A stretch of DNA of 64,000 nt from Pelomonas sp. Root1444 (GTDB lineage Bacteria > Pseudomonadota > Gammaproteobacteria > Burkholderiales > Burkholderiaceae_C). Position 1 is the first letter of the stretch; every line of letters starts with the position of its first letter. Made by a program: the position numbers and the translations under genes. The notes under the pieces are model-generated. The model saw only the letters and a program-made list of their open reading frames with translations, did no database searches and was not told the DNA's origin. The stretch lies in the NCBI RefSeq assembly GCF_001426885.1, contig NZ_LMFP01000028.1, positions 829,811 to 893,810 of the forward strand, written 5' to 3'. This document shows, piece after piece, positions 34,387 to 61,355 of the stretch.

Positions 34387-35502
34387 GTGGCCCCAGATCG
34401 CCCGAAAGACTCCACCGAACCCGCCGCGGAGGGACGCCGACGCAGCAGTGCTCCGACGCTTGCCGATGTCGCCCGCGAAGCAGGGGTTTCCAGGATGGCA
34501 GCCTCGGGCGCACTCAACGGTGGACAGCGCGGCTCGGTGCGCGTTTCGGCCGAAACGCGGGATCGCGTGTTGGCCGTTGCAGGGCAGTTGGGATATCGGC
34601 CGAACGCCACTGCTCTCGCGCTCGCGCATCAGCGGACTGATGCGGTAGGCGTCGTCACCAACTTTCTGGGAGAAGAGCCTAACCTCTACTTCCTGGAGTT
34701 GTTCAGTGGCGTCATTCAGGGCGCGACGGCAGCCGGATTGACAACTGCCGTCTTCACCTTGAAGGACTGGCGTGACGCCCCCAGCCGCATACCGACGCTG
34801 TGCGACGGCCGCGTTGATGGACTGATCCTGTTGGCCCCACGGCTGCCAGATGACGGCGCGAAGTGGTCGCCAAAACACACACCCATGGTGTCCGTGCATG
34901 CCGAGCAACCCGTTTACCGCGTGGTGAACATTGAATCGGACAACGAAATTGGCGCATACGAGATGGTGCGCCACCTGCTCGAGATCGGACACCGACGCAT
35001 CCTGCATGTCGGCGGACCACCCCAGTACTCCGGGGCGACTCGACGAGTGGACGGCTACCTGCGTGCTTTTGCCGAAGCAGGTGTGGCGCCTCCTGAAGGC
35101 CACGTGGTTCGTGCACCGCTGACTGTCGAGGGTGGCCGTGAAGCGATGCAGCATTGGCTGCAGGTTCACAGCGGTGAGCAACTCCCCGAGGCCGTTTTCG
35201 GAGGCAACGACGCCATCGCCTTCGGCTGCATCGAGGCGCTGCGAATGCGAGGCGTCCGCGTGCCCGAGGAAGTGTCCGTCGTCGGCTATGACAACAGCTG
35301 GATGGCACGCTCAGTGCAAATGGCCACAGTGCACCAGCCGCTGCATGAAATGGGACGGCGCGCCGTCGAGGTGCTTGTGCAGCGGATCGAGGCGCGCAAT
35401 CGAGGCGACGAGACTGTGCCGAGCCATGTCGTGCTGCCGACCGAGGTCGTGCTGGGCAAGACGTTGGCCTCGCCACGTCGGGCTCGCCTGACCATTGCCT
35501 GA
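34387..35502 (+). CDS. LacI family transcriptional regulator of the xyloglucan locus
   Basis: A 371-aa repressor. Residues about 23-75 form the LacI helix-turn-helix (PTLADVAREAGVSRMAASGALNGG, then RVSAETRDRVLAVAGQLGYRPNATA), followed by a periplasmic-binding-like effector domain (VGVVTNFLGEE, GRVDGLILLAPRL, VVGYDNSWMARSVQMATVHQPLHEMGRRAVEVL). GTG start at 34387. It is the first gene after the tRNA boundary and faces a convergent halogenase-like gene. A LacI-type operator candidate lies at 37323-37340, in the divergent promoter of the halogenase-like and uptake genes, so those are the likely targets. The inducer is probably a xyloglucan-derived sugar (inference). Confidence 0.9.
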   Translation: MAPDRPKDSTEPAAEGRRRSSAPTLADVAREAGVSRMAASGALNGGQRGSVRVSAETRDRVLAVAGQLGYRPNATALALAHQRTDAVGVVTNFLGEEPNLYFLELFSGVIQGATAAGLTTAVFTLKDWRDAPSRIPTLCDGRVDGLILLAPRLPDDGAKWSPKHTPMVSVHAEQPVYRVVNIESDNEIGAYEMVRHLLEIGHRRILHVGGPPQYSGATRRVDGYLRAFAEAGVAPPEGHVVRAPLTVEGGREAMQHWLQVHSGEQLPEAVFGGNDAIAFGCIEALRMRGVRVPEEVSVVGYDNSWMARSVQMATVHQPLHEMGRRAVEVLVQRIEARNRGDETVPSHVVLPTEVVLGKTLASPRRARLTIA

Positions 35503-35729: not shown

Positions 35730-37247
35730 TCAACCACCTGCAATTCGCGACAGCACCTCCGCATGCAACGGCATGGCTTGCGTGGTGCGGCGGATGGCGC
35801 TTCGGACGGTTGCCAAGTGCCGCTTGACACTGTCGAGGTCGACCAGGTCGACATAGGGGTCGCGCCGGCGCGGCGTGAGCCCCAATCCCAGCATCAGAGA
35901 CGCCCAGGACGGCTCCGCAAAGCCCTCCGGGTCGATGATGGCCACGCGGCCGGTCTCCCGGAACAACTCGAGCTGGTGCGCCAGGACGTCCGGAATGCTC
36001 ATGTCAGCGCAATAGCGCCAGAACTCGCTGTCGCGCCGCTCGCCGAGCTTGTAGTGCAGGACGATGAAGTCGCGGACCGATTCATAGCGATATGCCATCT
36101 GCCGATTGAACTCCTCGGCCAGTGAAGGGGCGAAATCACGGTCCGGTAGAAGCGCGGTCAGTCGGCCGACGCTGTCCATGATGAACTGGATGCTGGTGGA
36201 CTCCAGCGGTTCCAGGAATCCAGCGGACAGGCCGATGGCCACGACGTTCTTGGTCCACGCCCGCTTGCGGCGGCCGGCTGTGAAGCGCTGCGGCCTGGGA
36301 TCGTCCAGCGGCTTGCCGTCCAGGTTCGCCAGCAAGGTTTGCGCAGCCTCACCGTCGCTGAGATGGCTGCTGCAGTAGACCAGCCCGTTGCCGGTGCGGT
36401 GCTGCAACGGGATGCGCCACTGCCAGCCCGCCGAGCGGGCGGTCGAGGTGGTGTAGGGCGTCATCGGGTCGGTGCGTTCGCATGGAACGGCCAACGCCCG
36501 GTCGCAAGGCAGCCAGTGGCTCCAGTCCTCGTAAGGGGACTTCATCGCGCCCCCGATGAGTAGCGCGCGGAAGCCCGAGCAGTCGATGAAGAGATCGCCT
36601 TCCACGCGGCGGCCGTCGCTCAGATGCAGTGCCTCGACGAAGCCGTTCTGCTCCGAGGTCTTCACGCCGACGATGGTGCCGACGACGCGTTGCGCGCCAT
36701 GTCGAACCGCGTAATCACGCAGGTAGCGGCCATAGAGTGCCGCGTCGAAGTGGTAGGCGTAGTCGAATGCGTTCGCAGGTGAAGGTTCACCCGGCTGCGG
36801 CGGTGTGAATCGCAGCGCACGCGCCATGACCGTGGCGGTGGACCAGTCCTCATAGGATTCGATGCCAGGATCCCGCTCGCGCAGGCGCAGCCAGTAGGAC
36901 CACAGCGGCCTGTTGTGGATGGGCGGACCGAAGCCTCCAAAGCCGTGGAAGAAGCGGTGGCCGATGCGCCCCCAGTCGCAGAACTCGATGCCCAGCTTGA
37001 AGCTCGCCTGCGTGGCACGGACGAAATCGGTTTCGTCGATGCCCAGCAACTGGTTGTAGAAGCGGATGGTCGGCAGCGTGGCTTCACCCACGCCCACCGT
37101 ACCGATCTCCTCCGACTCGACCAGCACGACCTCACAGTGGTCAGGCCCGTCCGGCCCGCAGAGCATGCGGGCCAGGGGCGCGGCGGTGATCCAGCCCGCG
37201 CTGCCGCCGCCCACGATGACCACGCGACGCAGAGACCGACTTCGCAT
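35730..37247 (-). CDS. Tryptophan halogenase family flavoprotein
   Basis: A 505-aa FAD-dependent protein. The N-terminal dinucleotide-binding motif is VVIVGGGSAGWITAAPLA. Halogenase-family marks include EEIGTVGVGEATLPTIRFYNQLLG, FKLGIEFCDWGRIGHRFFHGFG and the WQWRIPLQHRTGNGLVY block, with VVAIGLSAGFLEPLESTSIQFIMDSV at the substrate side. Homologues of this type are often found beside TonB-dependent receptors in carbohydrate loci of Xanthomonas and Caulobacter relatives; some are brominases active on indole, but no physiological role is established. It is divergent from the uptake lipoprotein gene across an operator-like site. No tryptophan or indole biosynthetic gene is nearby. Confidence 0.86.
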   Translation of the reverse strand: MRSRSLRRVVIVGGGSAGWITAAPLARMLCGPDGPDHCEVVLVESEEIGTVGVGEATLPTIRFYNQLLGIDETDFVRATQASFKLGIEFCDWGRIGHRFFHGFGGFGPPIHNRPLWSYWLRLRERDPGIESYEDWSTATVMARALRFTPPQPGEPSPANAFDYAYHFDAALYGRYLRDYAVRHGAQRVVGTIVGVKTSEQNGFVEALHLSDGRRVEGDLFIDCSGFRALLIGGAMKSPYEDWSHWLPCDRALAVPCERTDPMTPYTTSTARSAGWQWRIPLQHRTGNGLVYCSSHLSDGEAAQTLLANLDGKPLDDPRPQRFTAGRRKRAWTKNVVAIGLSAGFLEPLESTSIQFIMDSVGRLTALLPDRDFAPSLAEEFNRQMAYRYESVRDFIVLHYKLGERRDSEFWRYCADMSIPDVLAHQLELFRETGRVAIIDPEGFAEPSWASLMLGLGLTPRRRDPYVDLVDLDSVKRHLATVRSAIRRTTQAMPLHAEVLSRIAGG

Positions 37248-37322: not shown

Positions 37323-37340
37323 TGATATCTCGGTATATCA
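37323..37340. promoter_or_regulatory. Candidate LacI-family operator
   Basis: TGATAT and ATATCA (perfect 6-base arms) flank CTCGGT, whose centre is CG; 14 of 18 positions are symmetric. A central CpG palindrome of this length is the usual LacI-family site. It lies in a locally AT-rich 180-base gap between the halogenase-like gene and the lipoprotein/TonB receptor genes, so one bound repressor could control both directions. Confidence 0.6.
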
Positions 37341-37427: not shown

Positions 37428-39002
37428 GTGACGAAAAAATGGGTTCCACATGCCGGCAAGTTGACGCTTTTGGCGGCGTGCGCAATGTTGGCCGCCTGCG
37501 GCGGCGGCGGTGAAGGGGCGAACGCGGGCGGGCGCCAGCAGTTCATCACCTTCAAATATCCCGGCGGCGGCGAACTGGAGCAGGTGAAGACGCTGTCGGC
37601 CACCACGACGTCGGGCCTGGCGGTGAGCTTCAAGTCGTCCACGCCGGACTTCTGCACCGTGTCGGGTGATCAACTCACGTTGGTGAAGGCGGGCGAGTGC
37701 CGCGTCATCGCCAGTCAAGCGGGCGGAAAAACCGATGACGGCGTCCAGTGGGCCGCCGCGGACGATGCCGATCAGTTGTTCACGGTGCTGAAGCACCCCC
37801 AGCTGCCGATCGTGCCACTCGCTGTGATGGTGCGGGCGAGCAGCGCGAACGTGGAGCTGTCGGCCACGACCTCGGCCGGGATCGCGGCGACGTACACGTC
37901 CACCACGCCAACCGTTTGCACGGTCAGCGGCAAGACCTTGACGGCCTCGGGCGCCGGGCTCTGCATGCTGGGCGTGACGGCGCCGGCAAATGACCACTAC
38001 GCCGCGCTCGAAGGGGGAGTCGCGGCAATCGCAGTCGGACCGATCCCCCCGATGGTGGTCCAAAGGCAGAACAAGACCCAAACGATCGCGCTTGCCGCAG
38101 TTGACGCGAGCGGCAGCGCACTGACCTATTCAAGCACCGCGCCCGCGGTGTGCTCGGTCTCCGGCACTTCTCTTCAGCTGACTGCCGATGGTCTTTGCAC
38201 ATTGAGCATGTCCGGGGCAAACGGCGCTTCCGAAACGCTCACCGTGAACGTCGGCCCGCGATTCTTCGCGTCCGGCTTCAACGCGACCACGAGTCGCACC
38301 GCGGAGCTGGGTGGGATCGACTCCAACGGCGGGTTCCCGGATGCCTCCTGGTGTGGTGCGGTGACGCCGTCGTACTGCAATCTCTCGGTGACCCCCTTCT
38401 CCGCGACCTTCAGCTTCGACATCAAGCCGTCGAACAACCCCAACTGGAAGGGCGACTTCGGCTGGTCGTACTACACCTTCGAGATCGGCGCGCCGATGAA
38501 GCAAAACGGTTCCACGTTCGAGGCTCTGCCCTTCGACGTGAAGACCGAGGAGTCGCTGTTCGTCACGCTGAACATGAACCAGACGCTGTTCGACGGGAAG
38601 GGCGGCGTTTTCGTCCGCGTCAAGACCAATCACCTGCTGAAGAAGTCCGATGGCTCCGACTGCTACGTGACGGTATCGACGCACGTGCTGCCAACCTCTG
38701 CGGCACCTGCGGGCTACGTGCTTCCGTTCAAGGACTTCGCCGTGACGGACAAGTGCGAAAGCGCCGATTTGCCCCAGACCGAGGGCTGGATGTTCGACTG
38801 GGGCGTCTCGGCTGAATCGAAGGCCGCTGCGCTCAAGGAAATCAGGACTTACGGCATCCGCGCACTGCAGTTCGCGCCGAACGGCCTGAACACCACCCGG
38901 CCGACGCCCAATGCCGACGGCTCCGTGCCCACCGATCCGAAAGATGCGGCCTACACGCTGAGCACCGGCATCACCGTCTTCGGCCCGATCACTGTGCAGT
39001 GA
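37428..39002 (+). CDS. Lipoprotein with three Ig-like repeats, candidate surface glycan-binding protein
   Basis: A 524-aa protein I cannot assign to a known family. The GTG at 37428 has GAGGAG nine bases upstream. The signal ends in a lipobox (LAACGGGG, lipidated Cys24). Residues about 36-277 hold three repeats of roughly 75-85 aa, each with a TxxxCxVSG strand and a second Cys 15 residues on (Cys76/91, 164/179, 242/257), as in bacterial Ig-like domains. Residues 278-524 form a separate beta-rich domain with many aromatics (NPNWKGDFGWSYYTFEIG, EGWMFDWGVSAESKA). It directly precedes a TonB-dependent receptor on the same strand. By position it may capture xyloglucan at the cell surface, like SGBPs of Bacteroidetes loci; this is inference. 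Confidence 0.72.
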   Translation: MTKKWVPHAGKLTLLAACAMLAACGGGGEGANAGGRQQFITFKYPGGGELEQVKTLSATTTSGLAVSFKSSTPDFCTVSGDQLTLVKAGECRVIASQAGGKTDDGVQWAAADDADQLFTVLKHPQLPIVPLAVMVRASSANVELSATTSAGIAATYTSTTPTVCTVSGKTLTASGAGLCMLGVTAPANDHYAALEGGVAAIAVGPIPPMVVQRQNKTQTIALAAVDASGSALTYSSTAPAVCSVSGTSLQLTADGLCTLSMSGANGASETLTVNVGPRFFASGFNATTSRTAELGGIDSNGGFPDASWCGAVTPSYCNLSVTPFSATFSFDIKPSNNPNWKGDFGWSYYTFEIGAPMKQNGSTFEALPFDVKTEESLFVTLNMNQTLFDGKGGVFVRVKTNHLLKKSDGSDCYVTVSTHVLPTSAAPAGYVLPFKDFAVTDKCESADLPQTEGWMFDWGVSAESKAAALKEIRTYGIRALQFAPNGLNTTRPTPNADGSVPTDPKDAAYTLSTGITVFGPITVQ

Positions 39003-39044
39003 CGGCCCCTCGGACGCAATACAACGATCAACAGAGACACATCC

Positions 39045-42000
39045 ATGAGACAGTTTCGAACCACAGCTATCCACCGCGGCGTCATTCAGCTCGCGCTGCT
39101 GAGCGTCGGCGGTGCCGCGCTGGCGCAGGCTCAGCCGGCCGAGGACAAGAAGCCCCAATCGCTCGAGACCGTGGTCGTCAAGGGCACGCGTGCCGCGCTG
39201 CAGAGCGCGCAGAAGATCAAGCAGAACTCCGAGGAGATCGTCGACTCGGTCGTTGCCGACGAGGCAGGCAAGCTGCCCGACAAGTCCATCACCGAAGTGC
39301 TGCAGCGCATCGTCGGCGTGACGATCGAGCGCCTGCGCTCGACCAACAACGACCCCAAGCACTTCTCCGAAGGCAGTGACGACCGCATCAACGTGCGTGG
39401 CCTGTCGTGGGGATCGTCCACGCTCAATGGACGCGAACTGTTCTCCGCCGGCTGGCCGGGTCGCGACCTGAGCTGGAGCGCGGTGCCGTCCGAACTGATG
39501 GCAGCCGTGGACGTCTACAAGAACCCGTCGGCCGAAAGGATCGAAGGCGGCGTCAGCGGCCAGGTGGACCTGCGCACTCACCTGCCCTTCAACTTCAACG
39601 GCACCAAGAGCGTCGTCAGGTTCGGCAGCAACTACGAGCAAAAGACGAAGAAGGCGGCGCCAGCGCTCTCGGCCATCTATTCGACCCGATGGGACACTGA
39701 CTCGGGCCAATGGGGCGCGCTGGTCGACGTGGCTCTGAACCACTCGACCTACGAACAGCAGAAGCTGGAGCTGCAGCCCTACTTCCCCCGCACCGACGTG
39801 ATCCCCGGCCAGACGGTGTGGGCACCGGGCGCGGCCAACTGGGGCCAGAACGTCGGGACCACGGACCGCAGGGGCTTGTATGGCGCACTGCAGTGGAAGA
39901 AGAACGACATGCAGTCGTCGCTGACGGCCTTCATTTCCAAAGGCCGGGACGAGAACACCGGCTCCAACATCTATCCCAGCTTCTCCGACCCGAACTACAA
40001 CGCCTCGCCCTACAACGTCCTCATCGAGAGGCCGGTGGTCGACGACCGCGGCGTGGTGGTGTCGGGCCACTACAGCTATCCGTTGCGGCTGCCCACGTAC
40101 CCTGACGGGACCATCAACTGGTCGTATGGCGGCAAGGGCGCGAACCAGTTCGCCGACGGCGGCCTGAGCATGGGCACCAGCCGCGCGTTCACCGAGCACC
40201 GCAGCACCACCAGTGAACTGGCCTGGAACTTCAAGTGGGCCATCAATGAAAACTGGGCCGTGCAGAACGACCTGCAGTGGGTGAAGTCGTCCTTCCGCAC
40301 CCGTGGTGAGGAAGTGCAGACGGCCACCTTCATGCCGAGCATGGACATCACGACCAACGGCAATGCGCCGGTGCAGATGGGTTTCGACCAGAAGACGCGG
40401 GACTTCCTGGCCGACCCCGGCAACTACTACTGGCTGTCGGTGATGCCCGGTCGGCTCAAGGGTGACGCCAACCTGTACGCCTGGAAGGTCGACGCGAAGC
40501 GCACGTTCGAACATCCGGTGCTGCGCGACTTCGCCTTCGGCCTGCGTACCACATACCGCACCTCGGTGCGCGAACAGGCGGTCTTCGGCGGACAGACGCA
40601 GAACGTGGACGCGAGCGTGGGCTGGCAGTCGGTTGCCATCCCGTGGCAGGTGCGCCAGACGGGCACGGCCGGCCAGTTGCCCAACATCAAGAACGACGAC
40701 CCCAACAATTCCTGGCAGTCGCGCGCCAATTTCGGCTACCTGAGCGACCCGCGCTACGGCGGCGCCGCCCCGACGGAGATCTACAACTACGCGCCCTTCG
40801 GCGGCAACCAGCCGCCGAGCGTGGTCTTCCCCACCTATGCCGGCATCAAGGATCCCGCCACCTACGCCAAGCTGCTTCACGACGTGCGTTTCCAGCAATG
40901 CCTGGATTCCCAGAAGTGGGCGAATGACTGGAACACAAAGAATCCGACCAACACCGCGACGGTCCCGACGTGCGATCCCAACGCGGCGGACTACACCTTC
41001 GACACCAACCTGTACTACGGGCTGAATCCGTTCAAGATCAGCAACGTTGCTGAGCGCACCCACGCCGTCTACGGCAATCTGCGCTTCGGCTTCGACGACT
41101 GGCAGGTGCCGGTGGAAGGCAACGTCGGCGTTCGCTTGATCTACACCGGCCGCGCCTCCCACGGCTTCACGTCGTTCACCCACACATACGACAACAACAC
41201 GCCGCCGGATCTCCCGCGTTTCGGCAACATCAACGACCCCCTGGATGTCAAAGCGAGCCACGTCGACGCGCTGCCTTCCATGAACCTGAAGTTCAACCTG
41301 ACGGGCGACAACAAGGTCATCGGCCGCATCGGCATGGCCAAGAGCATCTACCGCCCCGGCTTCGACAAGGTGCAGGAAGCCGTGACGCTGGCGCAGACGG
41401 TCGACACCGCCAACCAGCTGGTCAACTACACCGGCAAGAACAACGGCAACGCGAAACTCAAGCCCCTGCAGTCGAACAACTTCGACCTTGCCCTCGAGTG
41501 GTACCCGCGCAGCGGCCAGACGCTCACGGCGACGTTGTTCTACAAGGATGTGAAGGACCTGGTCTACAACTCCACCTACACCCGCGCCTACGACAGCCTG
41601 GCGGGCAATCCGAAGATCTTCGTCATCACCGGCCCGCGCAACGCTGCGAGCGCCCGGCTGAGCGGCATCGAGCTGAATGCGGAGACCTACCTCGACCACT
41701 TCGACTTCCTGAAAGCCGTGTTGCCGGACTGGGCCAAGGGGTTCGGCGTGTCGGCCAACTACACCTACATCGGCAGCAAGCAGAAGTTCTACCGCGACGC
41801 CCAGACGAAGTACTGCCCCGCTTACAACACCCTCACCGACGACGCGATCAAGGTCTACGGTTGCGACACCAACGGCGTGCCTTTGGGTTCCTTGCCGGTG
41901 CCGGGCGTGGTCAAGAACGCCGCCAACTTCGCGCTGCGCTACGACCGCTACGGCTTCTCGGCCCGTCTGGCCTACAACTGGACGAGCCGCGTGCTGAAGA

Positions 42001-42308
42001 ACGTCGGCAACGACAACAGCCCGAACGGGCAGAACGGCACGAGCGCCGATCCGACGCGCCAGACGGCCTGCCGTGGTGGCGCCTGCCGGGACACGTGGTG
42101 GGGACTGCCTCAGTACCAGGAGGCCTTCGGCCAGTTGGACGGTGGCGTGTCGTACAGCTTCACGGACAAGCTCAACCTGGCGCTCAGCGTGACGAACCTG
42201 AACAACGTGACAGTTCGCCGCACGAACCTGCAGGCCCCGGGCTTCATGGGCTCGTCCTGGAACTTCCCCGGCCGCAGCTACAACCTGACGGGCAGCTACG
42301 AGTTCTGA
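39045..42308 (+). CDS. TonB-dependent receptor for oligosaccharide uptake
   Basis: A 1087-aa outer-membrane receptor with a signal peptide (residues 1-28) and a TonB box (LETVVVKG, about 40-47). The plug domain is evident (IVDSVVADEAGKLPDKSITEVLQRIVGVTIERL, DDRINVRGLSWGSSTLNGRELFS), and the barrel runs to a C-terminal aromatic residue (NLTGSYEF). The size and the KLPDKSITEVLQR plug type match the large carbohydrate-specific receptors of proteobacteria rather than siderophore receptors. It follows the lipoprotein by 42 bases and precedes secreted xyloglucanases, so it most likely imports xyloglucan oligosaccharides. No ferric-uptake genes are nearby. Confidence 0.93.
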   Translation: MRQFRTTAIHRGVIQLALLSVGGAALAQAQPAEDKKPQSLETVVVKGTRAALQSAQKIKQNSEEIVDSVVADEAGKLPDKSITEVLQRIVGVTIERLRSTNNDPKHFSEGSDDRINVRGLSWGSSTLNGRELFSAGWPGRDLSWSAVPSELMAAVDVYKNPSAERIEGGVSGQVDLRTHLPFNFNGTKSVVRFGSNYEQKTKKAAPALSAIYSTRWDTDSGQWGALVDVALNHSTYEQQKLELQPYFPRTDVIPGQTVWAPGAANWGQNVGTTDRRGLYGALQWKKNDMQSSLTAFISKGRDENTGSNIYPSFSDPNYNASPYNVLIERPVVDDRGVVVSGHYSYPLRLPTYPDGTINWSYGGKGANQFADGGLSMGTSRAFTEHRSTTSELAWNFKWAINENWAVQNDLQWVKSSFRTRGEEVQTATFMPSMDITTNGNAPVQMGFDQKTRDFLADPGNYYWLSVMPGRLKGDANLYAWKVDAKRTFEHPVLRDFAFGLRTTYRTSVREQAVFGGQTQNVDASVGWQSVAIPWQVRQTGTAGQLPNIKNDDPNNSWQSRANFGYLSDPRYGGAAPTEIYNYAPFGGNQPPSVVFPTYAGIKDPATYAKLLHDVRFQQCLDSQKWANDWNTKNPTNTATVPTCDPNAADYTFDTNLYYGLNPFKISNVAERTHAVYGNLRFGFDDWQVPVEGNVGVRLIYTGRASHGFTSFTHTYDNNTPPDLPRFGNINDPLDVKASHVDALPSMNLKFNLTGDNKVIGRIGMAKSIYRPGFDKVQEAVTLAQTVDTANQLVNYTGKNNGNAKLKPLQSNNFDLALEWYPRSGQTLTATLFYKDVKDLVYNSTYTRAYDSLAGNPKIFVITGPRNAASARLSGIELNAETYLDHFDFLKAVLPDWAKGFGVSANYTYIGSKQKFYRDAQTKYCPAYNTLTDDAIKVYGCDTNGVPLGSLPVPGVVKNAANFALRYDRYGFSARLAYNWTSRVLKNVGNDNSPNGQNGTSADPTRQTACRGGACRDTWWGLPQYQEAFGQLDGGVSYSFTDKLNLALSVTNLNNVTVRRTNLQAPGFMGSSWNFPGRSYNLTGSYEF

Positions 42309-42630: not shown

Positions 42631-45159
42631 ATGAGACTGAAGTTGGGAACCTTGATGCTGGCCATGATGGCCGGTTCGGCTGCGCTCGCGCAGACCTGCA
42701 CGCCGACGGCCATCAAGCCTTATGTGCTGGTCAACGGCGGCTCCTGGCAGCAGACAAGCTCGGCCACCGTCAAGGTCGGCGACTGGGCCATCCTCGGCCC
42801 GCAGCCGACGTCCGGCGGCTCGTGGAGCTGGAGCGGCTGCGGCACCTCCGGCACCTCGCGTGAACAGACGATCTCGCCGACGGCGTCATGCACGGCCACC
42901 GCGACCTACACCAACAGCTGCGGCGCCAAGACGACGCAGGCCTTCGCCATCAAGTCCGGCACCTGGAGCAACGTGAAATGGGGCGGCGGCGGCTATGTCA
43001 CCGGCCTGATCTTCCACCCCACCAGCCGTGACGTGCTGTACGCCCGCACCGACATCGGTGGTGCCTACCGCTGGAACGAGTCCAACAAGACCTGGGTGCC
43101 GCTCACCGATGGCTTCGGCCCGTCCGAGAGCTTCTTCCAGGGCGCCGAGAGCATCGCGCTGGATCCCAACAACGACCAGCTGGTCTACATGGTGACGGGC
43201 CTGTCCAACTCGGCAGACGCCACCGCCCGGCTGTACAAGTCCAGCAACCGCGGCAGCAGCTGGACCGCAGTCAACCTGCCCTTCTCGGCCGGCTCCAACA
43301 ACGCCGGCCGCGCCATCGGCGAGCGGCTGATGGTCGACCCCAACAAGCCGTCCACGCTGTTCTACGGCTCGCGCACGGCCGGCCTCTGGAAGAGCACGGA
43401 TTCCGGCAACACCTGGAGCCAGGTGACCTCGCTGTCCTCGGTCAAGATGACGGCCGACCAGATCAGCGCCGCCGGCGGCAACATCAAGGGCGTCGGCGTG
43501 GTCGTCTACGACACCGGCACCCGCGGCTCGGGCAACGCCACGCAGACCATCTACGCGGCCATCGCGCCCGACTACGCCAGCGCCGCCGGCCTGACCTCCA
43601 ACCTCTACCGCTCCACCAACGGCGGCACATCGTGGAGCCCGGTGTCCACGCCGGTCACCGGCTACCACATCCCGCACATGGTGCGCGCGGCCGACGGCAT
43701 GTTCTACGTGGCGTTCACCCAGGGCTCGGGCCCGGGCGCCAACGGACCTGGCCGGCTCTACAAGTTCAACGGCACGACCTGGACCCCGCTTGCCAGCGTC
43801 GACCCGACGCAGTGGACGAGCTTCGGCTACGGCGGCCTGTCGGTCTCGGGCAGCGGCTCGACCACGCGCGTCGCACTGGGCGTGACCAACTCCTGGGGCA
43901 ACTACAGCGGCCAGCAGGTCGTGCAGCTCTCCAACAACGCCGGCCTGACCTGGCAGGAGATCGCCGCCGCCATGCCGCACTCGCCGGCCAGCGACGGCTT
44001 CTCGGGCTGGATCGACGATGTCGAGATCGACCCGTTCAACAGCGAGCGCGTGCTGCACGTGCACGGCGGCGGCATCTGGGAAACGCGCAACGCCTCCTCG
44101 ACCACACCGAGCTGGACCGAGCGCGTCGACGGCCTGGAGGAGACCGCCACGCTGGGCATTGCAACGCCGCCGGCCGGCGCGACCTACACACTGGTCGACA
44201 GCGCCGGCGACATCGGCACCTGGGTCTACACCAACCTGACGCAGAAGCCGACGCTGACCACGGGTGGTGACCGCATCAACGGCAACGCGGCCGACATGGC
44301 CTGGTCCGACCCGCAGTACATCGCGGCCGTCAGCTACTCGCACGCCACCAACGCCGGGCGGGGCCACTGGTCGGGCGACGGCGGCAGGACCTGGTCGGCA
44401 TTCGCGACGCTGCCCAACGGCGCCGCCGCCGGCGCAGGCACCGAAGCGAACATTGCCGTCCCGGCCCGCAACCGCGCCATTTGGGCGCCGACGAACGCCG
44501 TGCCCTCGTACACCACCAACAACGGCGCCAGCTGGACGTCGACCAACCTGCCGGCGCTGTCGAACATCAACGCCAACCGCGCCTACCGCGTCGTGGCCGA
44601 CCGCAAGAACCCGAACAAGGTTTATGCCTACGACTCGGGAGGCCAATGGTGGGGTCCGCAGGGCAAGGTCTACGTGTCGACCGACGGCGGCCAGAACTTC
44701 ACGCTGAGCCAGGGTTCCGTGAACGCCAACCTGCGCGCCAACCCCTTCGGGTTCACGTCGCTGGCGGTCAACCCCAATGCCGAAGGCCACCTCTGGCTGG
44801 CCGATGGCAACACGATCTACCGTTCGGTGGACTCGGGCGCGACCTGGACGAAGTTCAGCCAGTTCGACTCGATCTGGGGCGACCGCCAGACCTGGCAATG
44901 GCCTGTCGTGCAGGGCGCCAGCGCCATCGCGCTCGGCAAGCCGGCGCCCGGTTCGTCGTACTCGGCAGCGGTCTACGTGGTGGGCACGATCAACGGCGTC
45001 TGGGGCGTCTGGCGCTCTGACGACGCGGGGGCCAACTGGACCCGCATCAACGACGACTCGACCCGCTACGCCGGCATCGGCGTGATCGCGGCCGACCAGA
45101 ACATCTACGGCCGCCTCTACGTCAGCGGCAACGGTCGCGGCATCCTTTACAGCAACTAG
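42631..45159 (+). CDS. GH74 endo-xyloglucanase, secreted, with N-terminal binding-like module
   Basis: An 842-aa enzyme that cuts the beta-1,4-glucan backbone of xyloglucan. Signal peptide residues 1-21; a Cys-containing beta module at 22-110 (ILGPQPTSGGSWSWSGCG, repeated in the GH5 protein); then the tandem seven-bladed propellers of GH74. The conserved first catalytic Asp is Asp141 in LYARTDIGGAYRWNES; NAADMAWSDPQYIA probably carries the second. BNR/sialidase-like Asp-box strands (SSNRGSSWTAV, STDSGNTWSQV, SVDSGATWTKF) recur as expected. It starts the secreted enzyme block after the TonB receptor. No lipobox, so it is predicted to be freely secreted or periplasmic. Confidence 0.93.
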   Translation: MRLKLGTLMLAMMAGSAALAQTCTPTAIKPYVLVNGGSWQQTSSATVKVGDWAILGPQPTSGGSWSWSGCGTSGTSREQTISPTASCTATATYTNSCGAKTTQAFAIKSGTWSNVKWGGGGYVTGLIFHPTSRDVLYARTDIGGAYRWNESNKTWVPLTDGFGPSESFFQGAESIALDPNNDQLVYMVTGLSNSADATARLYKSSNRGSSWTAVNLPFSAGSNNAGRAIGERLMVDPNKPSTLFYGSRTAGLWKSTDSGNTWSQVTSLSSVKMTADQISAAGGNIKGVGVVVYDTGTRGSGNATQTIYAAIAPDYASAAGLTSNLYRSTNGGTSWSPVSTPVTGYHIPHMVRAADGMFYVAFTQGSGPGANGPGRLYKFNGTTWTPLASVDPTQWTSFGYGGLSVSGSGSTTRVALGVTNSWGNYSGQQVVQLSNNAGLTWQEIAAAMPHSPASDGFSGWIDDVEIDPFNSERVLHVHGGGIWETRNASSTTPSWTERVDGLEETATLGIATPPAGATYTLVDSAGDIGTWVYTNLTQKPTLTTGGDRINGNAADMAWSDPQYIAAVSYSHATNAGRGHWSGDGGRTWSAFATLPNGAAAGAGTEANIAVPARNRAIWAPTNAVPSYTTNNGASWTSTNLPALSNINANRAYRVVADRKNPNKVYAYDSGGQWWGPQGKVYVSTDGGQNFTLSQGSVNANLRANPFGFTSLAVNPNAEGHLWLADGNTIYRSVDSGATWTKFSQFDSIWGDRQTWQWPVVQGASAIALGKPAPGSSYSAAVYVVGTINGVWGVWRSDDAGANWTRINDDSTRYAGIGVIAADQNIYGRLYVSGNGRGILYSN

Positions 45160-45318: not shown

Positions 45319-46962
45319 ATGAGACTGCTGTTATCCACCCTGCTGCTGGCCCTCGGTGCCGGCGCGGGCACGGCCGCCCAGGCCCAGAACTGCGGCAGCG
45401 GCGGCGGCGCCACCGTCTGCGTGACTGCCAACGGCACCGCCAACAACATCCAGCTGAACTGGACCGTCAGCGGCGCCGTCAAGTCGCTGGAGGTCTATCG
45501 CGACACGGATTCCAATCCCACCGGCCGCAGCCGCATCGCCATCGTCGACAAGGCGTCCACCAGCTATGGCGACGGCTCCGCCAACACCGGCACGCCCTAC
45601 TGGTACTGGATCAAGTTCACGACCGCCTCCGGCAGCTACAACTCCGGCTCGGCCACGGCCACGCGCGGCAGCGGCTGCACGCCGACGGCCGTGACGCCCT
45701 ATATCAACGTCGGCGGCACCTGGACGCAGACCGCCTCGGCTTCCGTCCCCTCGGGCCAATCGGCCATCCTCGGCCCGCAGCCCATCTCCGGGGGCATGTG
45801 GAGCTGGAACGGCTGCGGCACCGTGGGCGCTTCGCGCGAGCAGACCATCACCCCGACTGCCGCCTGCACGGCCACGGCGACCTACACCAATGCCTGCGGT
45901 GCCAAGACGCTGCAGTCGTTCACGATCGCTGTCGCCGGCGCCATGCGCAACATTACCAGCATGCAGATGTCCAAGGAGATGTCGCCGGGCTGGAATATAG
46001 GCAACACGCTGGACGCGACACCGACCGAAACCTCCTGGGGCCAGCCGCTGATCAACCAGGCGCTGATGAACGGCATCAAGAACGCCGGCTTCAAGAGCAT
46101 CCGCCTGCCGGTCACCTGGACACCGCACGTCGACGCCAACGACAACATCGACCCGATATGGATGGCGCGCGTCACGCAGGTCGTCAAGTACGCGCGCAAC
46201 GCCGGCCTGTACGTCGTGTTGAACCTGCACCATGAAGGCGGCTGGTTGAACAACACCACCTATGCCGCCCAACCGGCCAACAACGCCCGATTGACCAAGC
46301 TGTGGACGCAGATCGCCAACAACTTCAAGGACTACGACGACTACCTGCTGTTCGCCGCCATGAACGAGATCGGCAAGGAGAACACGGTCTGGGGCGCGCC
46401 CAAGGACCCCGAGTGGCTGAACGTCCAGAACGGCTACAACCAGGCGTTCGTGAACGCGGTACGCGCCACCGGCGGCAACAACGCCAAGCGCCATCTCGTC
46501 GCCCAGGCCTACGAGACCAACATCGACATCTCCTACGCCTCTGCGGTGCTGCCCACCGACACCATCGCCAATCGCCTGTTCTTCGAGATCCACTACTACG
46601 ACCCGTACAACTTCACGATCAACGACAAGAGCAACCAGTGGCAGTGGGGCGCCTCCGCGACCGACCCCAACCGCGAGACCTGGGCCAACGAGCCCTATGT
46701 GGACGCCGAGTTCCAGAAGATGAAGACGCGCTTCATCGACCAGGGCGTGCCGGTCCTCGTGGGTGAGTACGGCGCCTACAACAAGCCGAACTATCCGGGC
46801 ATGCCGCCCTACCGCAAGGCCTGGGCCCAGTACGTCACGCGCTCGGCCTGGCTGCACGGCCTGGTGCCGATGTGGTGGGATACGGGCGAGATGATCGACC
46901 GCAACACCGGCGCGGTGAAGACGCCCGACGAGATCAGCACCATCGTCAACGCCACCAAGTGA
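45319..46962 (+). CDS. GH5 endoglucanase/xyloglucanase (subfamily 4-like), multimodular
   Basis: A 547-aa secreted enzyme. Signal peptide 1-22; fibronectin-III-like domain about 33-117 (IQLNWTVSGAVKSLEVYRDT); Cys-containing beta module 120-207, closely similar to that of the GH74 upstream; catalytic barrel about 215-547. GWNIGNTLDA, SIRLPVTWTPHVD and VVLNLHHEGGWL match GH5 subfamily 4, which includes xyloglucanases. The acid/base Glu350 is in FAAMNEIG and the nucleophile Glu483 in LVGEYGAYN. It probably cuts backbone positions differently from GH74. It follows the first GH74 and shares its leader. Confidence 0.92.
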   Translation: MRLLLSTLLLALGAGAGTAAQAQNCGSGGGATVCVTANGTANNIQLNWTVSGAVKSLEVYRDTDSNPTGRSRIAIVDKASTSYGDGSANTGTPYWYWIKFTTASGSYNSGSATATRGSGCTPTAVTPYINVGGTWTQTASASVPSGQSAILGPQPISGGMWSWNGCGTVGASREQTITPTAACTATATYTNACGAKTLQSFTIAVAGAMRNITSMQMSKEMSPGWNIGNTLDATPTETSWGQPLINQALMNGIKNAGFKSIRLPVTWTPHVDANDNIDPIWMARVTQVVKYARNAGLYVVLNLHHEGGWLNNTTYAAQPANNARLTKLWTQIANNFKDYDDYLLFAAMNEIGKENTVWGAPKDPEWLNVQNGYNQAFVNAVRATGGNNAKRHLVAQAYETNIDISYASAVLPTDTIANRLFFEIHYYDPYNFTINDKSNQWQWGASATDPNRETWANEPYVDAEFQKMKTRFIDQGVPVLVGEYGAYNKPNYPGMPPYRKAWAQYVTRSAWLHGLVPMWWDTGEMIDRNTGAVKTPDEISTIVNATK

Positions 46963-47015
46963 TGGCCCGCTAACACCCTTGTGAACAGCGGGCTCGGCGC
47001 CCGCACTTCTCTCCA

Positions 47016-47041
47016 GCGCGGGAGGCAATGGCCTCCCGCGC
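47016..47041. terminator. Hairpin between GH5 and GH29
   Basis: GCGCGGGAGGC and its perfect complement flank a 4-base loop (11-base-pair stem). ATTTCTCCTT follows on the plus strand, a weak T-rich tail. It lies 53 bases after the GH5 stop and just before the GH29 start, so it may attenuate rather than end transcription. Confidence 0.5.
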
Positions 47042-47052
47042 ATTTCTCCTTC

Positions 47053-48714
47053 ATGACCGACATGAATTCAAAATCCGTCGCCCCCTGGACCCGCCGCTCC
47101 TTCCTCAGCGCCGCGGCCGCCACCGCAGGCGCCACCGGACTGACCGTCGCCCAGGCCGCACCCGCGCCCTTCCAGCCCACCTGGGACTCCCTCGTCGACG
47201 GCTACCGCACGCCCGACTGGTTCCGCGACGCCAAGTTCGGCATCTGGGCGCACTGGAGCGCGCAATGCGTGCCGGAGATGGGCGACTGGTATGCCCGCAG
47301 CATGTACATCCAGGGCAACTGGCAGTACGAGCACCACCTGAAGACCTATGGCCACCCGGCCGACGTCGGCTTCATGGAGATGAACAACCGCTGGAAGGCC
47401 GAGAACTGGGACCCGGAAGCCCTGCTCGACCTCTACGCCAAGGCCGGCGCCAAATACTTCGTCGCCCTGGCCAACCATCACGACAACTTCGACAACTACA
47501 ACTCCAAGTACCACGCCTGGAACAGCGTGCGCGTCGGCCCCAAGCGCGACCTGATCGCCGGCTGGGCCAAGGCAGCCCGCGCCCGCGGCCTGCGCTTCGG
47601 TGTCAGTAACCACTCGGCTCATGCCTGGCACTGGTTCCAGACCGCCTACGGCTACGACGCCGAAGGCCCGCGCGCTGGCCAGCGCTACGACGCCTTCCGC
47701 CTGAGCAAGGCCGACGGCAAGGGCAAGTGGTGGGAAGACCTGGACCCCCAGGATCTCTACGGCGGCCGCAACATCGTCATCCCCGACGGCTTTCGCACCG
47801 CGCGCTCCGCCAACGCCTGGCACGAGGAGAACGACCGCTACTGGGACGAGAAGGCGCCGCTGCAGAACCCGGCCTTCACGCGCCAGTGGTTCCTGCGCTG
47901 CCGCGACCTGATCGACAGCTACAAGCCCGACCTCGTCTACTTCGACAACTCCGGCCTGCCGCTGGGCCAGGCCGGCCTGGACATCGCGGCCCACTACTAC
48001 AACGCCAGCATGGCCTGGAACGACGGCCGCCTGGAAGCCGTCATCAACGCCAAGGTGCTGCCGCCCGAGCGCCGCCCCGGCCTCGTCGAGGACGTGGAGC
48101 GCGGCTTTCGCGAAGGCATCGAGCCCCTGCCCTGGCAGACCGACACCTGCATCGGCGACTGGCACTACAACCGCGGCATCTTCGAGGGCCACCACTACAA
48201 GCCGGCCGGCACCGTCATCCACCGCCTCTGCGACATCGTCTCCAAGAACGGCAACCTGCTGCTGTCGGTGCCGGTGCGCGGCGACGGCAGCATCGACGCG
48301 GACGAGCGCAAGATCGTCGAGGACATCGGCGTCTGGATGGCGCGCAACGGCGAGGCCATCCACGGCACACGACCCTGGCGCGTCTACGGCGAAGGCCCCA
48401 CGCGCGTCAGCGGCGGCATGTTCAGCGAAGGCAATTCCCAGCCGATGACGCCCGACGACATCCGCTTCACGGCCAAGGGCGGCGCCCTCTACGCCATCGC
48501 CCTGGGCTGGCCCAAGGACGGCGTCATGCGCATCCAGACCCTGGCCGAGGAATCGGCCGTCGCACCCGGCTCCATCGACAGCATCGTGGCCCTCGGCTCG
48601 GGTGACAGCCTGAGCTTCAAGCGCACCCGCCGTGGCCTGGAGGTCAAGCTGCCCGAAGGCCTTGCCGGCGCACCGGCCGTGGCCGTGAAGATCCGCGGCA
48701 CCGGTCTGGTCTGA
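47053..48714 (+). CDS. GH29 alpha-L-fucosidase, Tat-exported
   Basis: A 553-aa enzyme. The ATG at 47053 is chosen; another in-frame ATG is three codons later. A twin-arginine signal (WTRRSFLSAAAATAGATGL) directs folded export. The catalytic barrel shows GH29 marks: WFRDAKFGIWAHWSAQCVPE, AKYFVALANHHDNFDNYNS, and the nucleophile Asp298 in LVYFDNSGLPLG. A C-terminal beta domain follows (SKNGNLLLSVPVRGDGSID links the two). It is expected to remove alpha-1,2-linked fucose from F side chains of xyloglucan; other loci use GH95 for this step. It lies about 90 bases after GH5. Confidence 0.9.
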   Translation: MTDMNSKSVAPWTRRSFLSAAAATAGATGLTVAQAAPAPFQPTWDSLVDGYRTPDWFRDAKFGIWAHWSAQCVPEMGDWYARSMYIQGNWQYEHHLKTYGHPADVGFMEMNNRWKAENWDPEALLDLYAKAGAKYFVALANHHDNFDNYNSKYHAWNSVRVGPKRDLIAGWAKAARARGLRFGVSNHSAHAWHWFQTAYGYDAEGPRAGQRYDAFRLSKADGKGKWWEDLDPQDLYGGRNIVIPDGFRTARSANAWHEENDRYWDEKAPLQNPAFTRQWFLRCRDLIDSYKPDLVYFDNSGLPLGQAGLDIAAHYYNASMAWNDGRLEAVINAKVLPPERRPGLVEDVERGFREGIEPLPWQTDTCIGDWHYNRGIFEGHHYKPAGTVIHRLCDIVSKNGNLLLSVPVRGDGSIDADERKIVEDIGVWMARNGEAIHGTRPWRVYGEGPTRVSGGMFSEGNSQPMTPDDIRFTAKGGALYAIALGWPKDGVMRIQTLAEESAVAPGSIDSIVALGSGDSLSFKRTRRGLEVKLPEGLAGAPAVAVKIRGTGLV

Positions 48715-48743: not shown

Positions 48744-50660
48744 ATGCACAAGACCACCCGCATCGCCGCCGCCCTCCTCGCCTTGGCCGCCTCCGGCGCC
48801 CAGGCCGCCGACCTCGTCATCGCCTCGCCCAACGGCAGCATCAGCCTGCGCATCGCCGACGATGCCAGCAGCTTCAGCATCGTCCGCAAGGGCGAGACCG
48901 TCATCGCGCCCTCGCCCCTCGGCCTGGAACTGGACGGCCAGCCCGCCTTCGGCCTGCTGAGGCTGGAATCGCGCCAGGACACGAAGGAAGACCGCGTCAT
49001 TCCACTCGTCGCCACCAAGGCCGCCACGGCGCGCGACCACTACGCCGGCACGACGCTGGCCTTCCGCGAAGCCGCCGGTCCGCGCCGCCGCGTCTTCATG
49101 GACGTCCGTGCCTATGACGACGGCGTCGCCTTCCGCTACCGCCTCGACGGCACGGAGCCGGTCAAGCTGCGCAGCGAGCGCACGGCCTTCGTGCCGGCGG
49201 GCGACGCGTCCTGCCTGCTGACGCCGGTCGACGGTGGTCACGAGGCGCAGTTCGAACGCCATCGCGTCTCCGAGCTCAAGGCCGATGCCGCCTTCGACAT
49301 GCCCGTGGTCTGCGCCACCCCGTCGGGCCGCACCCACTACGCCATCACGCAGGCCCACCTGCAGGGCTACACCGGGGCGTCGTTCCGCCGCGAGGGCGAG
49401 GCGCTGCGCCTGCAGCTGTCCGGCGTGCCGGGGCGCCAGGGCCCCGCCTTCGTTTCGACGGGCGGGCTGACGACCGCCTGGCGCGCCGTCATGATGGCCG
49501 ACCGCGCCGGCGACCTGATCCCTTCGCAACTGGTCGGCAATCTCAACCCGGCGCCGGCCGGCGACTTCAGCTGGGTCAAGCCCGGCAAGACGTCATGGGA
49601 CTGGTGGTCGGGCCCGCTGGAAGGCGTCAAGCCCGACCTGGCCGCCTACAAGCGCTTCATCGATTTCGCGGCCGAGTCCGGCTTCGCCTACCACCTGATC
49701 GATGCCGGCTGGTCCTTCGGTGCCGGCCCCTGCTGCGACCCGCTGCCGACGACCGACATCGCCCGTGCCGCCGACGGCATCGACATGCCTGCCCTGGCGC
49801 GCTACGCGGCCGATAAAGGCGTGGGCCTGCTGTTGTGGGTCCACTGGCAGCACCTGGACCCGCGCATGGACGAGGTGCTCGACACCTATGCGCGCTGGGG
49901 CATCAAGGGCATCAAGGTCGACTTCATGAACCGCGACGACCAGGACATCGTCAAGTTCTACGAGCGTGTCGCCGAGGCCACGGCCAAGCGCCAGATGCTG
50001 CTGGACATGCACGGCGCCTACGTGCCGGCCGGCCTGCAGCGCACCTATCCCAACTACATCACACAGGAAGGGGTGCTGGGTGCCGAGTGGAACAAGATGG
50101 ACCGGCGTGTCACGCCGCGGCACAACTTGATGCTGCCCTACACGCGCATGCTCACGGGGCCGATGGACTACACGCCCGGCGGCTTCCGCAACGCGACGCC
50201 GGCCACCTACGAGATCCGCGCCGTCATGCCGCAGACCCAGACCACGCGCGGCCAGGCGCTGGCCATGTACGTCGTCTACGACAGCCCGCTGCAGATGGTC
50301 TCCGACGACCCCGCCAACTACCGCGGCGAGGCCGGCTTCGATTTCATCAAGCGCGTGCCCACCGCCTGGGACGAAACGCGCTTCATCTCCGGCGAACCCG
50401 GCGAGGACATCGTGCTGGCGCGCCGCCGCGGCAAGACCTGGTACCTCGGCGCAATGACAAGCGAGCAGGCCCGCACCGAGAAGGTGTCGCTCGGCTTCCT
50501 GCCCCCTGGGCGCTGGAAGGCCACGGTCTGGCAGGACGGTGAAGAGGTCCGCGAAGTGCGCCGCACGCAGCGCATGGTGACGAACAAGGACGTGCTCAGC
50601 CTGGCGCTGGCCGCGGCCGGCGGCGCAGCAGTGGTGCTGGAGCCGACGCCGGCCCCATGA
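48744..50660 (+). CDS. GH97 alpha-glycosidase, secreted
   Basis: A 638-aa protein. Signal peptide 1-21; N-terminal beta-super-sandwich; barrel from about residue 280 (SWDWWSG, YHLIDAGWSFG); C-terminal beta domain. The strand GIKGIKVDFMNRDDQ puts Asp393 at the nucleophile position of retaining GH97 alpha-galactosidases, while inverting alpha-glucosidases (SusB-type) lack it; QEGVLGAEW carries candidate acid Glu residues. So an alpha-galactosidase-like activity is more likely than alpha-glucosidase, but this is inference. An alpha-hexose is not a common xyloglucan substituent, so its target is unclear. It follows the GH29 gene by 29 bases. Confidence 0.87.
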   Translation: MHKTTRIAAALLALAASGAQAADLVIASPNGSISLRIADDASSFSIVRKGETVIAPSPLGLELDGQPAFGLLRLESRQDTKEDRVIPLVATKAATARDHYAGTTLAFREAAGPRRRVFMDVRAYDDGVAFRYRLDGTEPVKLRSERTAFVPAGDASCLLTPVDGGHEAQFERHRVSELKADAAFDMPVVCATPSGRTHYAITQAHLQGYTGASFRREGEALRLQLSGVPGRQGPAFVSTGGLTTAWRAVMMADRAGDLIPSQLVGNLNPAPAGDFSWVKPGKTSWDWWSGPLEGVKPDLAAYKRFIDFAAESGFAYHLIDAGWSFGAGPCCDPLPTTDIARAADGIDMPALARYAADKGVGLLLWVHWQHLDPRMDEVLDTYARWGIKGIKVDFMNRDDQDIVKFYERVAEATAKRQMLLDMHGAYVPAGLQRTYPNYITQEGVLGAEWNKMDRRVTPRHNLMLPYTRMLTGPMDYTPGGFRNATPATYEIRAVMPQTQTTRGQALAMYVVYDSPLQMVSDDPANYRGEAGFDFIKRVPTAWDETRFISGEPGEDIVLARRRGKTWYLGAMTSEQARTEKVSLGFLPPGRWKATVWQDGEEVREVRRTQRMVTNKDVLSLALAAAGGAAVVLEPTPAP

Positions 50661-50681: not shown

Positions 50682-51371
50682 ATGCTGCACTCTGATCAAA
50701 GCGCCGATCCGCCCCGCCAATACCGTCTGGTCGCAGCACAAATCCGTGCGTTGATCGACATGGATCGAATCAGACCCGGAGCGCGGCTGCCTCCCGAGCG
50801 GGAGATGGCTCAGCAGTTCGGTGTATCCCGCCAAGTCGTGCGGGAAGCGCTGGTCGCTCTTGAATTCGAAGGCGAAGTCGAGATCCGCGCAAGTTCGGGT
50901 GCCTACGTCTGCGGAGTGGACAAGGGAAATGCCGTTCAGCCGCGGCTCGGCCGGTCCCCTGCGGAACTCATCCAAGCGCGCGTCGTGTTGGAGCGCGCCA
51001 TCATCACGCTCGCGGCGAGCCGCGTCAGCCAGCCGGGCCTTCTGCGCGTCGGCGCCGCGTTACAGGGGATGCGCGAGGATCTCGACCGTGGTCGGCCCCC
51101 GCTCGCGGCAGACCGGCAATTCCATCTGAGCATTGCCGAGATGGGAGGCTGCGACGCCCTTATCGGTGTCGTAGCGACGCTGTTCGACAGGTTTCACAGC
51201 GCGATCCCATCGCGTCACGTTTGCGATGAGGGCCTGACCAGCTGGCGAGCGGCCCTGATTGAACACGAGGCGATCTTTCAGGCCCTCAAAGCGCGCGATC
51301 CCATCACCGCCGACGCAGCACTTTGCAGCCATCTGCTCGCTGCTCGCAACCGTTCGACAGGCCTCTCCTAG
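50682..51371 (+). CDS. FadR-subfamily GntR transcriptional regulator
   Basis: A 229-aa protein. N-terminal winged helix (YRLVAAQIRALIDMDRIRPGARLPPEREMAQQFGVSRQVVREALVAL) and a C-terminal FCD effector domain whose metal-binding His residues are in RQFHLSIAE, EHEAIFQAL and CSHLL. FCD regulators commonly sense acidic or sugar-derived ligands. It sits in the middle of the enzyme genes, 21 bases after GH97, and is followed by the second GH74. This suggests a second layer of control or an internal operon junction within the locus. Confidence 0.88.
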   Translation: MLHSDQSADPPRQYRLVAAQIRALIDMDRIRPGARLPPEREMAQQFGVSRQVVREALVALEFEGEVEIRASSGAYVCGVDKGNAVQPRLGRSPAELIQARVVLERAIITLAASRVSQPGLLRVGAALQGMREDLDRGRPPLAADRQFHLSIAEMGGCDALIGVVATLFDRFHSAIPSRHVCDEGLTSWRAALIEHEAIFQALKARDPITADAALCSHLLAARNRSTGLS

Positions 51372-51465
51372 AGCTCCGGCCTTCGAACAGCTGCAGGCCG
51401 CTTGCGCGAGTCATTGTCACAACAAGAAGAGTTCTCGGGCGCCATCCCACAGCACTCCGAGATCC

Positions 51466-61192: not shown

Positions 61193-61333
61193 ATGAATCC
61201 GATGCCCGACAAGCCGCTCTCCCGGCGCAAGGCCCTGCAAGCGGCCCTTGCCGGGTCGGCCGCGGCCAGCGCGATGGCACCGCCGCAGGATGTCGTCTGC
61301 ACCGACCGCGCCACCGAGGCGAGGCTGGCCTGA
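61193..61333 (+). pseudogene. Orphan Tat-signal fragment, probable gene remnant
   Basis: A 46-codon frame starting MNPMPDKPLSRRKALQAAL and continuing AGSAAASAM before a short non-conserved tail and TGA. This is a convincing twin-arginine signal peptide with nothing attached. It sits in the 177-base gap between GH31 and GH42 and is co-directional with them. The best reading is the 5' end of a deleted exported enzyme gene. A free signal peptide would have no evident role. Confidence 0.55.
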
Positions 61334-61355
61334 AACCCATCGATCCAACCCGAAC

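Follow-up and report, generated by a model that had tools for sequence, protein, structure and literature searches.

A lipoprotein paired with a TonB-dependent receptor in a xyloglucan-type cluster of Pelomonas: a putative glycan-capture partner with an apparently exchanged C-terminal domain

Introduction

The locus studied here raises the question of what a lipoprotein of no assigned family does directly in front of a TonB-dependent receptor in a proteobacterial cluster of glycoside hydrolases (GHs). It lies in a 64,000-nucleotide stretch of the genome of Pelomonas sp. Root1444 (contig NZ_LMFP01000028.1, positions 829,811 to 893,810), referred to below as the window, the features of which are collected in Table 1. 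A first-pass annotation, made from the sequence alone, had proposed a proteobacterial analogue of the surface glycan-binding proteins (SGBPs) that stand beside such receptors in Bacteroidota, and possibly a new family of binding proteins. The comparisons described below make it fairly probable that the product is an outer-membrane lipoprotein which serves as the glycan-capture partner of the adjacent receptor.

Table 1. Features of the window that bear on the lipoprotein gene and its cluster.
Feature	Coordinates	Strand	Basis or remark
LacI-family regulator	34387..35502	+	
Trp-halogenase-family gene, divergent	35730..37247	-	
TGATAT-N6-ATATCA palindrome, divergent promoter region	37323..37340	.	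sequence
Lipoprotein gene, 524 aa, GTG start	37428..39002	+	start codon kept in relatives
Signal peptide with lipobox L-A-A-C; Cys24 is the predicted lipidation site	37428..37499	+	sequence
Ig-like repeat 1, aa 38-124	37539..37799	+	
Ig-like repeat 2, aa 125-207	37800..38048	+	
Segment without DNA match in syntenic L038, apparently an exchanged cassette	37804..39035	+	DNA alignment
Ig-like repeat 3, aa 208-277	38049..38258	+	
C-terminal domain (CTD), aa 278-524, 247 aa	38259..38999	+	
TonB-dependent receptor, TIGR01782 (TonB-Xanth-Caul), member of the partner clade	39045..42308	+	
GH74-like (BNR/sortilin propeller) enzyme	42631..45159	+	GH74 label inferred from propeller repeats
GH5 enzyme	45319..46962	+	
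GH29 alpha-L-fucosidase family	46981..48714	+	
GH97 enzyme	48744..50660	+	
Second GH74-like propeller enzyme	51259..53850	+	
GH39-family enzyme	53870..55444	+	
GH3 enzyme with PA14	54829..58236	+	open frame overlaps GH39 gene; true start later
GH31 enzyme with PA14	58233..61178	+	
GH42 beta-galactosidase family	61248..63404	+	

Results and discussion

Genetic context

The open reading frame, strand and coordinates of the first-pass annotation were all correct. The sequence AGGAG (37416-37420) lies 7 nt 5' of the GTG start (37428), and GTG is the start codon in 15/15 same-genus members, at the starts chosen in this analysis. The receptor gene begins 42 bp downstream of the lipoprotein gene, which bears out the earlier statement that the two are directly adjacent. 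The enzymes encoded beyond the receptor form a set that we take to fit (fuco)galacto-xyloglucan and, judging by this set, the cluster would be of the xyloglucan type.

A divergent flavoprotein gene of the Trp-halogenase family adjoins the lipoprotein gene in 11 of the 15 same-genus members, and a second copy is often present after the receptor; a search of the open-access literature on genes of this family in glycan clusters gave no lead. The palindrome between the divergent genes of the window has a near copy upstream of L038 (with ATATCT at one end) and is a candidate operator. TGGTCNGACCA-like palindromes, some of them mismatched, also occur in the lipoprotein promoter regions of L033, L034, L039 and L043-L046, which are shared with the halogenase gene, and a GTTTGCCCTA-like motif often comes next. 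GntR-type genes are found near several members, one of which (L035:5623-6354) was assigned as GntR with FCD by scan and the others by eye. Plasmid, viral-contig and PADLOC searches returned no match.

Anchor and repeat stalk

The N-terminus of the protein reads LAAC-GGGG, a lipoprotein signal peptide followed by a Gly-rich tether after Cys24. Every one of the 15 aligned same-genus members has the lipobox cysteine, in agreement with the earlier description of the protein as lipidated. Possible routes to the cell surface exist in the same genome, neither of them tied to this lipoprotein: a type II secretin scores over its NCBIfam cut-off, and a single Slam-type gene (SlipAM, PF04575) is present. 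No Slam gene lies near the lipoprotein gene, the only one in the genome being unlinked, on a different contig, from where it might still act.

Three repeats follow the tether, each with a Cys pair (76/91, 164/179 and 242/257) at a spacing of always 15 residues, and their pairwise alignments score 12-16 s.d. over 500 shuffles each. Repeat 1 is 48-78% identical to those of 14 same-genus relatives, and in nine of the 15 members aligned the number of repeats is two rather than three. In Pfam the repeats give sub-threshold Ig matches alone (Big-like, 21.4 bits; aBig_2, 17.4 bits; cut-off 27). AlphaFold2, run with two sequences on aa 24-277, gave a model (mean pLDDT 54; about 58-81 by block in the last repeat) that is almost all beta, with a similar order of strands three times over. 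When this model was submitted to Foldseek, Leptospira LigA ranked first (E 2.1e-3) and the next ranks held S-layer and cadherin-type domains intermixed with unrelated proteins, at TM-scores near 0.2, and no match was obtained at E <= 0.001. Since the pLDDT of the model is low and no Foldseek match reaches this threshold, the designation 'Ig-like' is likely rather than proven; the three repeats with regular Cys pairs claimed at first pass are present, and their Ig identity is retained in this weaker form.

The repeats alone were rejected as a mark of the family: L047-L050 have similarity to the repeats without a match to the CTD, and were excluded before members were counted.

The C-terminal domain

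The CTD is richer in aromatic residues than the repeats (12.6% versus 4.0% F/W/Y), as had been noticed at first pass, when its length was put at 245 aa instead of 247 aa. Cys309, Cys412 and Cys443 are found in 20/20 aligned members and Cys317 in 19/20, so that the domain is likely to contain two disulfides, as fits an exported domain. The sets of conserved aromatic residues differ from subtype to subtype; conserved Trp residues stand at positions 308, 340, 346, 454 and 458.

The domain had no match in Pfam, NCBIfam or the PDB sequences, and the earlier suggestion of a new family stands for the CTD on this basis. No carbohydrate-binding module (CBM) model of Pfam or NCBIfam matched it, and a phmmer search of the PDB sequences with the whole protein (E <= 1) matched no solved SGBP. 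Two CTD profiles run against the PDB sequences (E <= 10) returned laminin gamma-1 alone, with E = 0.69; this match was judged to be due to chance, and the extended CTD profile gave none. A two-sequence AlphaFold2 model of the CTD (window and L003) reached a pLDDT of 34.9. A kinship of the CTD to two jelly-roll-like modules of remote lipoproteins was unsupported by hhalign (probability 0.2%), and a jelly-roll fold was discarded as a proposal.

The possibility was considered that the CTD is catalytic, for instance a new hydrolase or esterase, and that the protein is a surface enzyme trimming glycans before import. The cluster is rich in enzymes, a domain of this size is large, and the 15 close CTDs all share one Glu (E99 in the CTD alignment); on the other hand, there is no invariant or nearly invariant Asp, Glu or His across the 20 aligned CTDs, and neither Pfam nor NCBIfam yields an enzyme family match. 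The lack of such residues fits binding better than catalysis, and a catalytic CTD is considered quite unlikely.

The close family and its receptors

The close family comprises 17 members (the window, L033-L046, L084 and L085) in 10 genomes of two genera. A search with the whole protein gave a match in 17 of 100 genomes, repeat-only matches counted, and a CTD profile found 15 genes in eight of 20 genomes of the genus, which includes Roseateles cellulosilyticus (L003). Within the bacterial family 19 of 399 genomes had a match to the CTD profile, 14 of them remote or weak only, with at most six candidates scored per genome. The genome of the window contains one paralogue (54-57% identity, depending on the measure) and was the sole genome with a match in samples of the class (1/369) and of the phylum (1/398); with 6-7 candidates scored per genome in these two samples, misses are possible. 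Within this sampling the CTD family appears to be narrow and confined to this bacterial family.

All 17 close members stand directly in front of a TonB receptor gene that is transcribed in the same direction, at distances of 42-213 bp in the 15 for which these were measured, the receptor start being chosen by motif. The linkage of homologues to receptors, which the first-pass annotation had made the check on its proposal, is thus complete in the close family, on which the check was made, and the proposal withstands it. In L042 (11441-14420) the receptor partner in G016 is split between overlapping frames of 574 and 523 aa, which is attributable to a frameshift or an assembly error.

As a control, the receptor of the window was searched against the eight member-bearing genomes of the genus (E <= 1e-60), which yielded 44 rows and, after split matches had been merged, 33 receptors. 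The 15 most similar of these are exactly those with a lipoprotein: 14 are 53-100% identical to the query over their full length, and one matches in two pieces (52 and 57%). The 18 others comprise eight at 38-44% identity over their full length and ten found as split matches (33-56%). As the CTD profile recovers no more than 15 genes in these genomes, all of them next to the 15 receptors above, no CTD gene lies directly upstream of any of these 18. Upstream stretches were obtained for 15 of the 18, one of only 289 bases; of eight upstream proteins that were scanned, four are GH2-type, one is a sub-threshold match of xylose-isomerase type and three are matchless at 1e-5. One partnerless receptor (G003:C2:308561-311626) belongs to the same cluster as L045, lies in the opposite orientation to its lipoprotein and is separated from it by other genes. 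The genome of the window encodes 63 receptor plugs above the Pfam cut-off versus two partner lipoproteins. All 15 members of one clade have a lipoprotein gene directly upstream and the 18 other receptors do not, so that pairing with the lipoprotein is, as far as sampled, characteristic of a single receptor clade.

Glycoside hydrolase genes, one or more per locus, were identified near 12 of the 17 members, a lower bound; in L035-L037, L040 and L042, where none was identified, the contigs stop soon after the receptor. Their kinds differ: GH43 and GH43-CBM6 in L041, an arabinofuranosidase in L043 and L044, GH35/42-like enzymes in L039 and L045, GH9 in L084, GH2 in L085, and GH74-like with GH5 or GH29 enzymes in L033, L034, L038 and L046.

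The one-to-one arrangement also bears on whether the protein could be a cell-wall adhesin that attaches the cell to plant fibres, its linkage to the receptor reflecting co-regulation only. A stalk of repeats with a variable aromatic tip is compatible with such a role, as is the presence of surface proteins among the top Foldseek matches of the stalk, none of them at E <= 0.001; a general adhesin would need no separate copy beside each receptor, which is what is seen in 15 pairs from eight genomes. An adhesin is thus regarded as very unlikely, and glycan capture in partnership with the receptor as the preferred reading.

Apparent exchange of the C-terminal domain between loci

The window is syntenic with L038, a locus from a sister species. 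The DNA of the two is 85-87% identical up to position 37803 and 80-84% identical from 39036 onwards, and the segment in between is unmatched, the identity being 85% just before it and 84% just after it. The encoded halogenases are 93% identical, the LacI regulators 95%, the GH5 enzymes 93%, the GH29 enzymes 80%, the receptors 78% and the GH74-like enzymes 67%; the lipoproteins reach just 42%. In the pair L033 and L035 the identity is 83% in repeat 1, 70% in repeat 3 and 26% in the CTD, and the DNA is 77% identical up to about codon 273 and 88% identical from 51 bp beyond the L033 stop codon, the stretch between these points being unmatched. Judged from these alignments, the part behind repeat 1 (window and L038) or behind repeat 3 (L033 and L035) looks to have been replaced as a unit.

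For the pair of window and L038 taken alone, fast divergence is a possible alternative to exchange. Exchange is favoured because the placement of L033 conflicts between trees. The receptor tree (14 rows, L042 excluded) joins the window with L045 and L034 with L038 (100/99 each), and places L033 beside L035-L037 with a support of 67/63; the more inclusive clade, to which L040 and L041 also belong, has 100/100. L033 likewise joins L035-L037 in the tree of the N-terminal part (98/94), while in the CTD tree (15 rows) it is grouped with the window and L034, apart from all others (100/100). The CTD changes while the anchor, repeat 1 and the receptor stay, as expected of a specificity module.

This pattern is relevant to a further alternative, a lipoprotein on the periplasmic side that assists the assembly, gating or signalling of the receptor instead of binding glycans. 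Its pairing with a single receptor clade would suit such a helper, and the surface exposure of the lipoprotein is itself a prediction; but a CTD in contact with the receptor predicts the reverse of a diverged or exchanged CTD joined to a conserved anchor half, and remote relatives of the CTD belong to glycan clusters in which no receptor was detected, as described below. A periplasmic helper is accordingly held to be unlikely, and capture of glycans by the CTD is retained as the preferred reading.

L038 is a xyloglucan-type locus like that of the window, yet it carries the other type of CTD. Either type can sit in such a locus, so that the correspondence of CTD type and ligand is not simple, unless there is a difference in ligand that the enzymes do not reveal. 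No correlation of CTD type with substrate is claimed: type II is found in three of the five GH74-like same-genus neighbourhoods (window, L033 and L034) and is absent from the GH74-like loci L038 and L046 and from 10/10 other same-genus neighbourhoods, counts drawn from related rows and, in several cases, from stretches that a contig end truncates.

Remote relatives of the C-terminal domain

Thirteen neighbourhoods of remote CTD genes (L086-L098) were analysed, their enzymes being assigned by homology to Pfam-scanned proteins. L090 and L097 were included on the strength of a family-wide profile search for the CTD (E 2.3e-12 and 4.0e-8), although a separate profile search of their reading frames did not recover the CTD gene; CTD matches in L080 and L081 (E 0.0017 and 0.0068) were judged to be due to chance. 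In nine of the 13, GH81 and GH17 genes accompany the CTD gene together with GH30 or GH1, and L090 and L097 contain a LacI gene, genes for an ABC-type sugar importer and GH1; in L093 (a 10.6-kb contig) and L098 none of GH81, GH17, GH30, GH1, LacI or an ABC importer was seen. From their gene content, 11 of the 13 look like beta-glucan clusters. A profile of the partner receptor clade, by which other receptor types may be missed, detected a receptor in 0/13 of the stretches read. With no receptor detected and 11 clusters of beta-glucan appearance, the CTD would be associated with glycans more widely than with receptors. The interpretation given at first pass is partly supported: the receptor linkage is complete in the close family and was not detected among the remote relatives of the CTD.

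Several of the remote CTD proteins start with lipobox-like signal sequences, and their stalks differ: Big_12 with two modules, Big_2-like repeats, or a DUF4369-type repeat. In L072/L090 and L079/L097, CTD lipoproteins stand on a stalk of YTIGGxVSGL-type repeats, with a DUF4369 match in L072, and illustrate that several stalk types carry the CTD. The beta-glucan clusters also encode an exported-looking protein of about 450 aa (L086:13927-15285), with homologues in L087, L088, L089, L091, L092 and L094-L096; the L086 copy has no NCBIfam match and the L091 copy no Pfam match at 0.001, and an outer-membrane porin is our guess.

Comparison with known systems

The fold of SusD, or SGBP-A, contains tetratricopeptide repeats (TPRs). 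The lipoprotein family resembles these proteins in that each copy is paired with a neighbouring TonB receptor of its own, in every one of the 17 close members, and differs from SusD in having a repeat stalk and a CTD instead of a TPR-containing fold; a comparison of the 15 same-genus members with all of Pfam-A (E <= 1) gave no match to the SusD family, nor was a TbpB-type match obtained at E <= 1. The family is also similar to the SGBP-B proteins of Bacteroidota, of which CHU_1279 is an SGBP-B-like example: these are multi-domain lipoproteins with a variable number of domains, encoded in a cluster with a TonB receptor and poorly conserved in sequence between loci (PMC12016534). As in SGBP-B, the predicted lipoprotein consists of serial domains ending in a distinct CTD, the beta fold of its repeats coming from a low-confidence model. 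It is unlike SGBP-B in being proteobacterial, in the lack of a sequence match, in its partner receptor of TonB-Xanth-Caul type, in its conserved Cys pairs and in a CTD family that is recognizable across loci. The best reading is that of a lineage-specific analogue of the Bacteroidota SGBPs, without sequence similarity to them.

The earlier statement that proteobacteria are not known to have a standard equivalent was too broad, since the surface lipoproteins TbpB, LbpB and HpuA of Neisseriaceae form bipartite receptors with TonB receptors (PMC7857515). These serve the uptake of iron or haem from host proteins, in contrast to the plant-wall enzyme clusters found here, and given their existence only the glycan case looks unprecedented in proteobacteria. 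The cluster of the window is similar to the xyloglucan loci of Xanthomonas and Cellvibrio japonicus in combining one or more TonB receptors with GH74, GH31, GH35 or GH95 enzymes (PMC8245568; PMC4285296). The Xanthomonas locus has two receptors, and the words 'SusD' and 'lipoprotein' are absent from the main text of that report (PMC8245568); the C. japonicus locus contains a receptor (PMC4285296). Studies of TonB transporters in a bloom (PMC8319329) and of a V. alginolyticus locus (PMC8222515) form part of the same background. Among the matches listed from the open-access literature, titles and the starts of abstracts do not describe the lipoprotein family; a prior description elsewhere is possible.

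Conclusions

Glycan capture is the preferred reading because it covers the pairing with the receptor, the aromatic tip, the differing enzymes of the clusters, the apparent exchange of the tip and the remote beta-glucan clusters. Points against it are the remote relatives with no detected receptor, the other CTD type in the xyloglucan-type locus L038, the five close members near which no glycoside hydrolase was identified, the narrow distribution, the lack of a PDB sequence match for the CTD and the Glu common to the 15 close CTDs. In the mechanism that we propose, the lipid and the Gly-rich tether would fix the protein in the outer membrane, presumably facing outwards, with two or three Ig-like repeats serving as a stalk. 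The CTD at its tip may bind the poly- or oligosaccharide degraded by the cluster, here probably xyloglucan, and would hand it to the receptor, which would import it for the GH31, GH42, GH29 and GH3 enzymes.

A reading that goes further is tentative and falls a little short of probable, namely that this is a receptor-paired capture lipoprotein of Burkholderiales with an origin separate from that of SusD and of SGBPs, with a fixed anchor and stalk and a CTD cassette that recombines between polysaccharide loci. If so, a locus could acquire a new ligand specificity and keep its receptor as it is.

The family would supply an uncharacterized and likely glycan-binding domain, which is also present in the apparent beta-glucan clusters, together with 17 natural pairs (one receptor being in two frames) in which the contributions of lipoprotein tip and receptor to specificity could be tested. 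If the proposal is true, a receptor-paired lipoprotein with a swapped tip in proteobacteria would represent convergent evolution of assisted glycan uptake.
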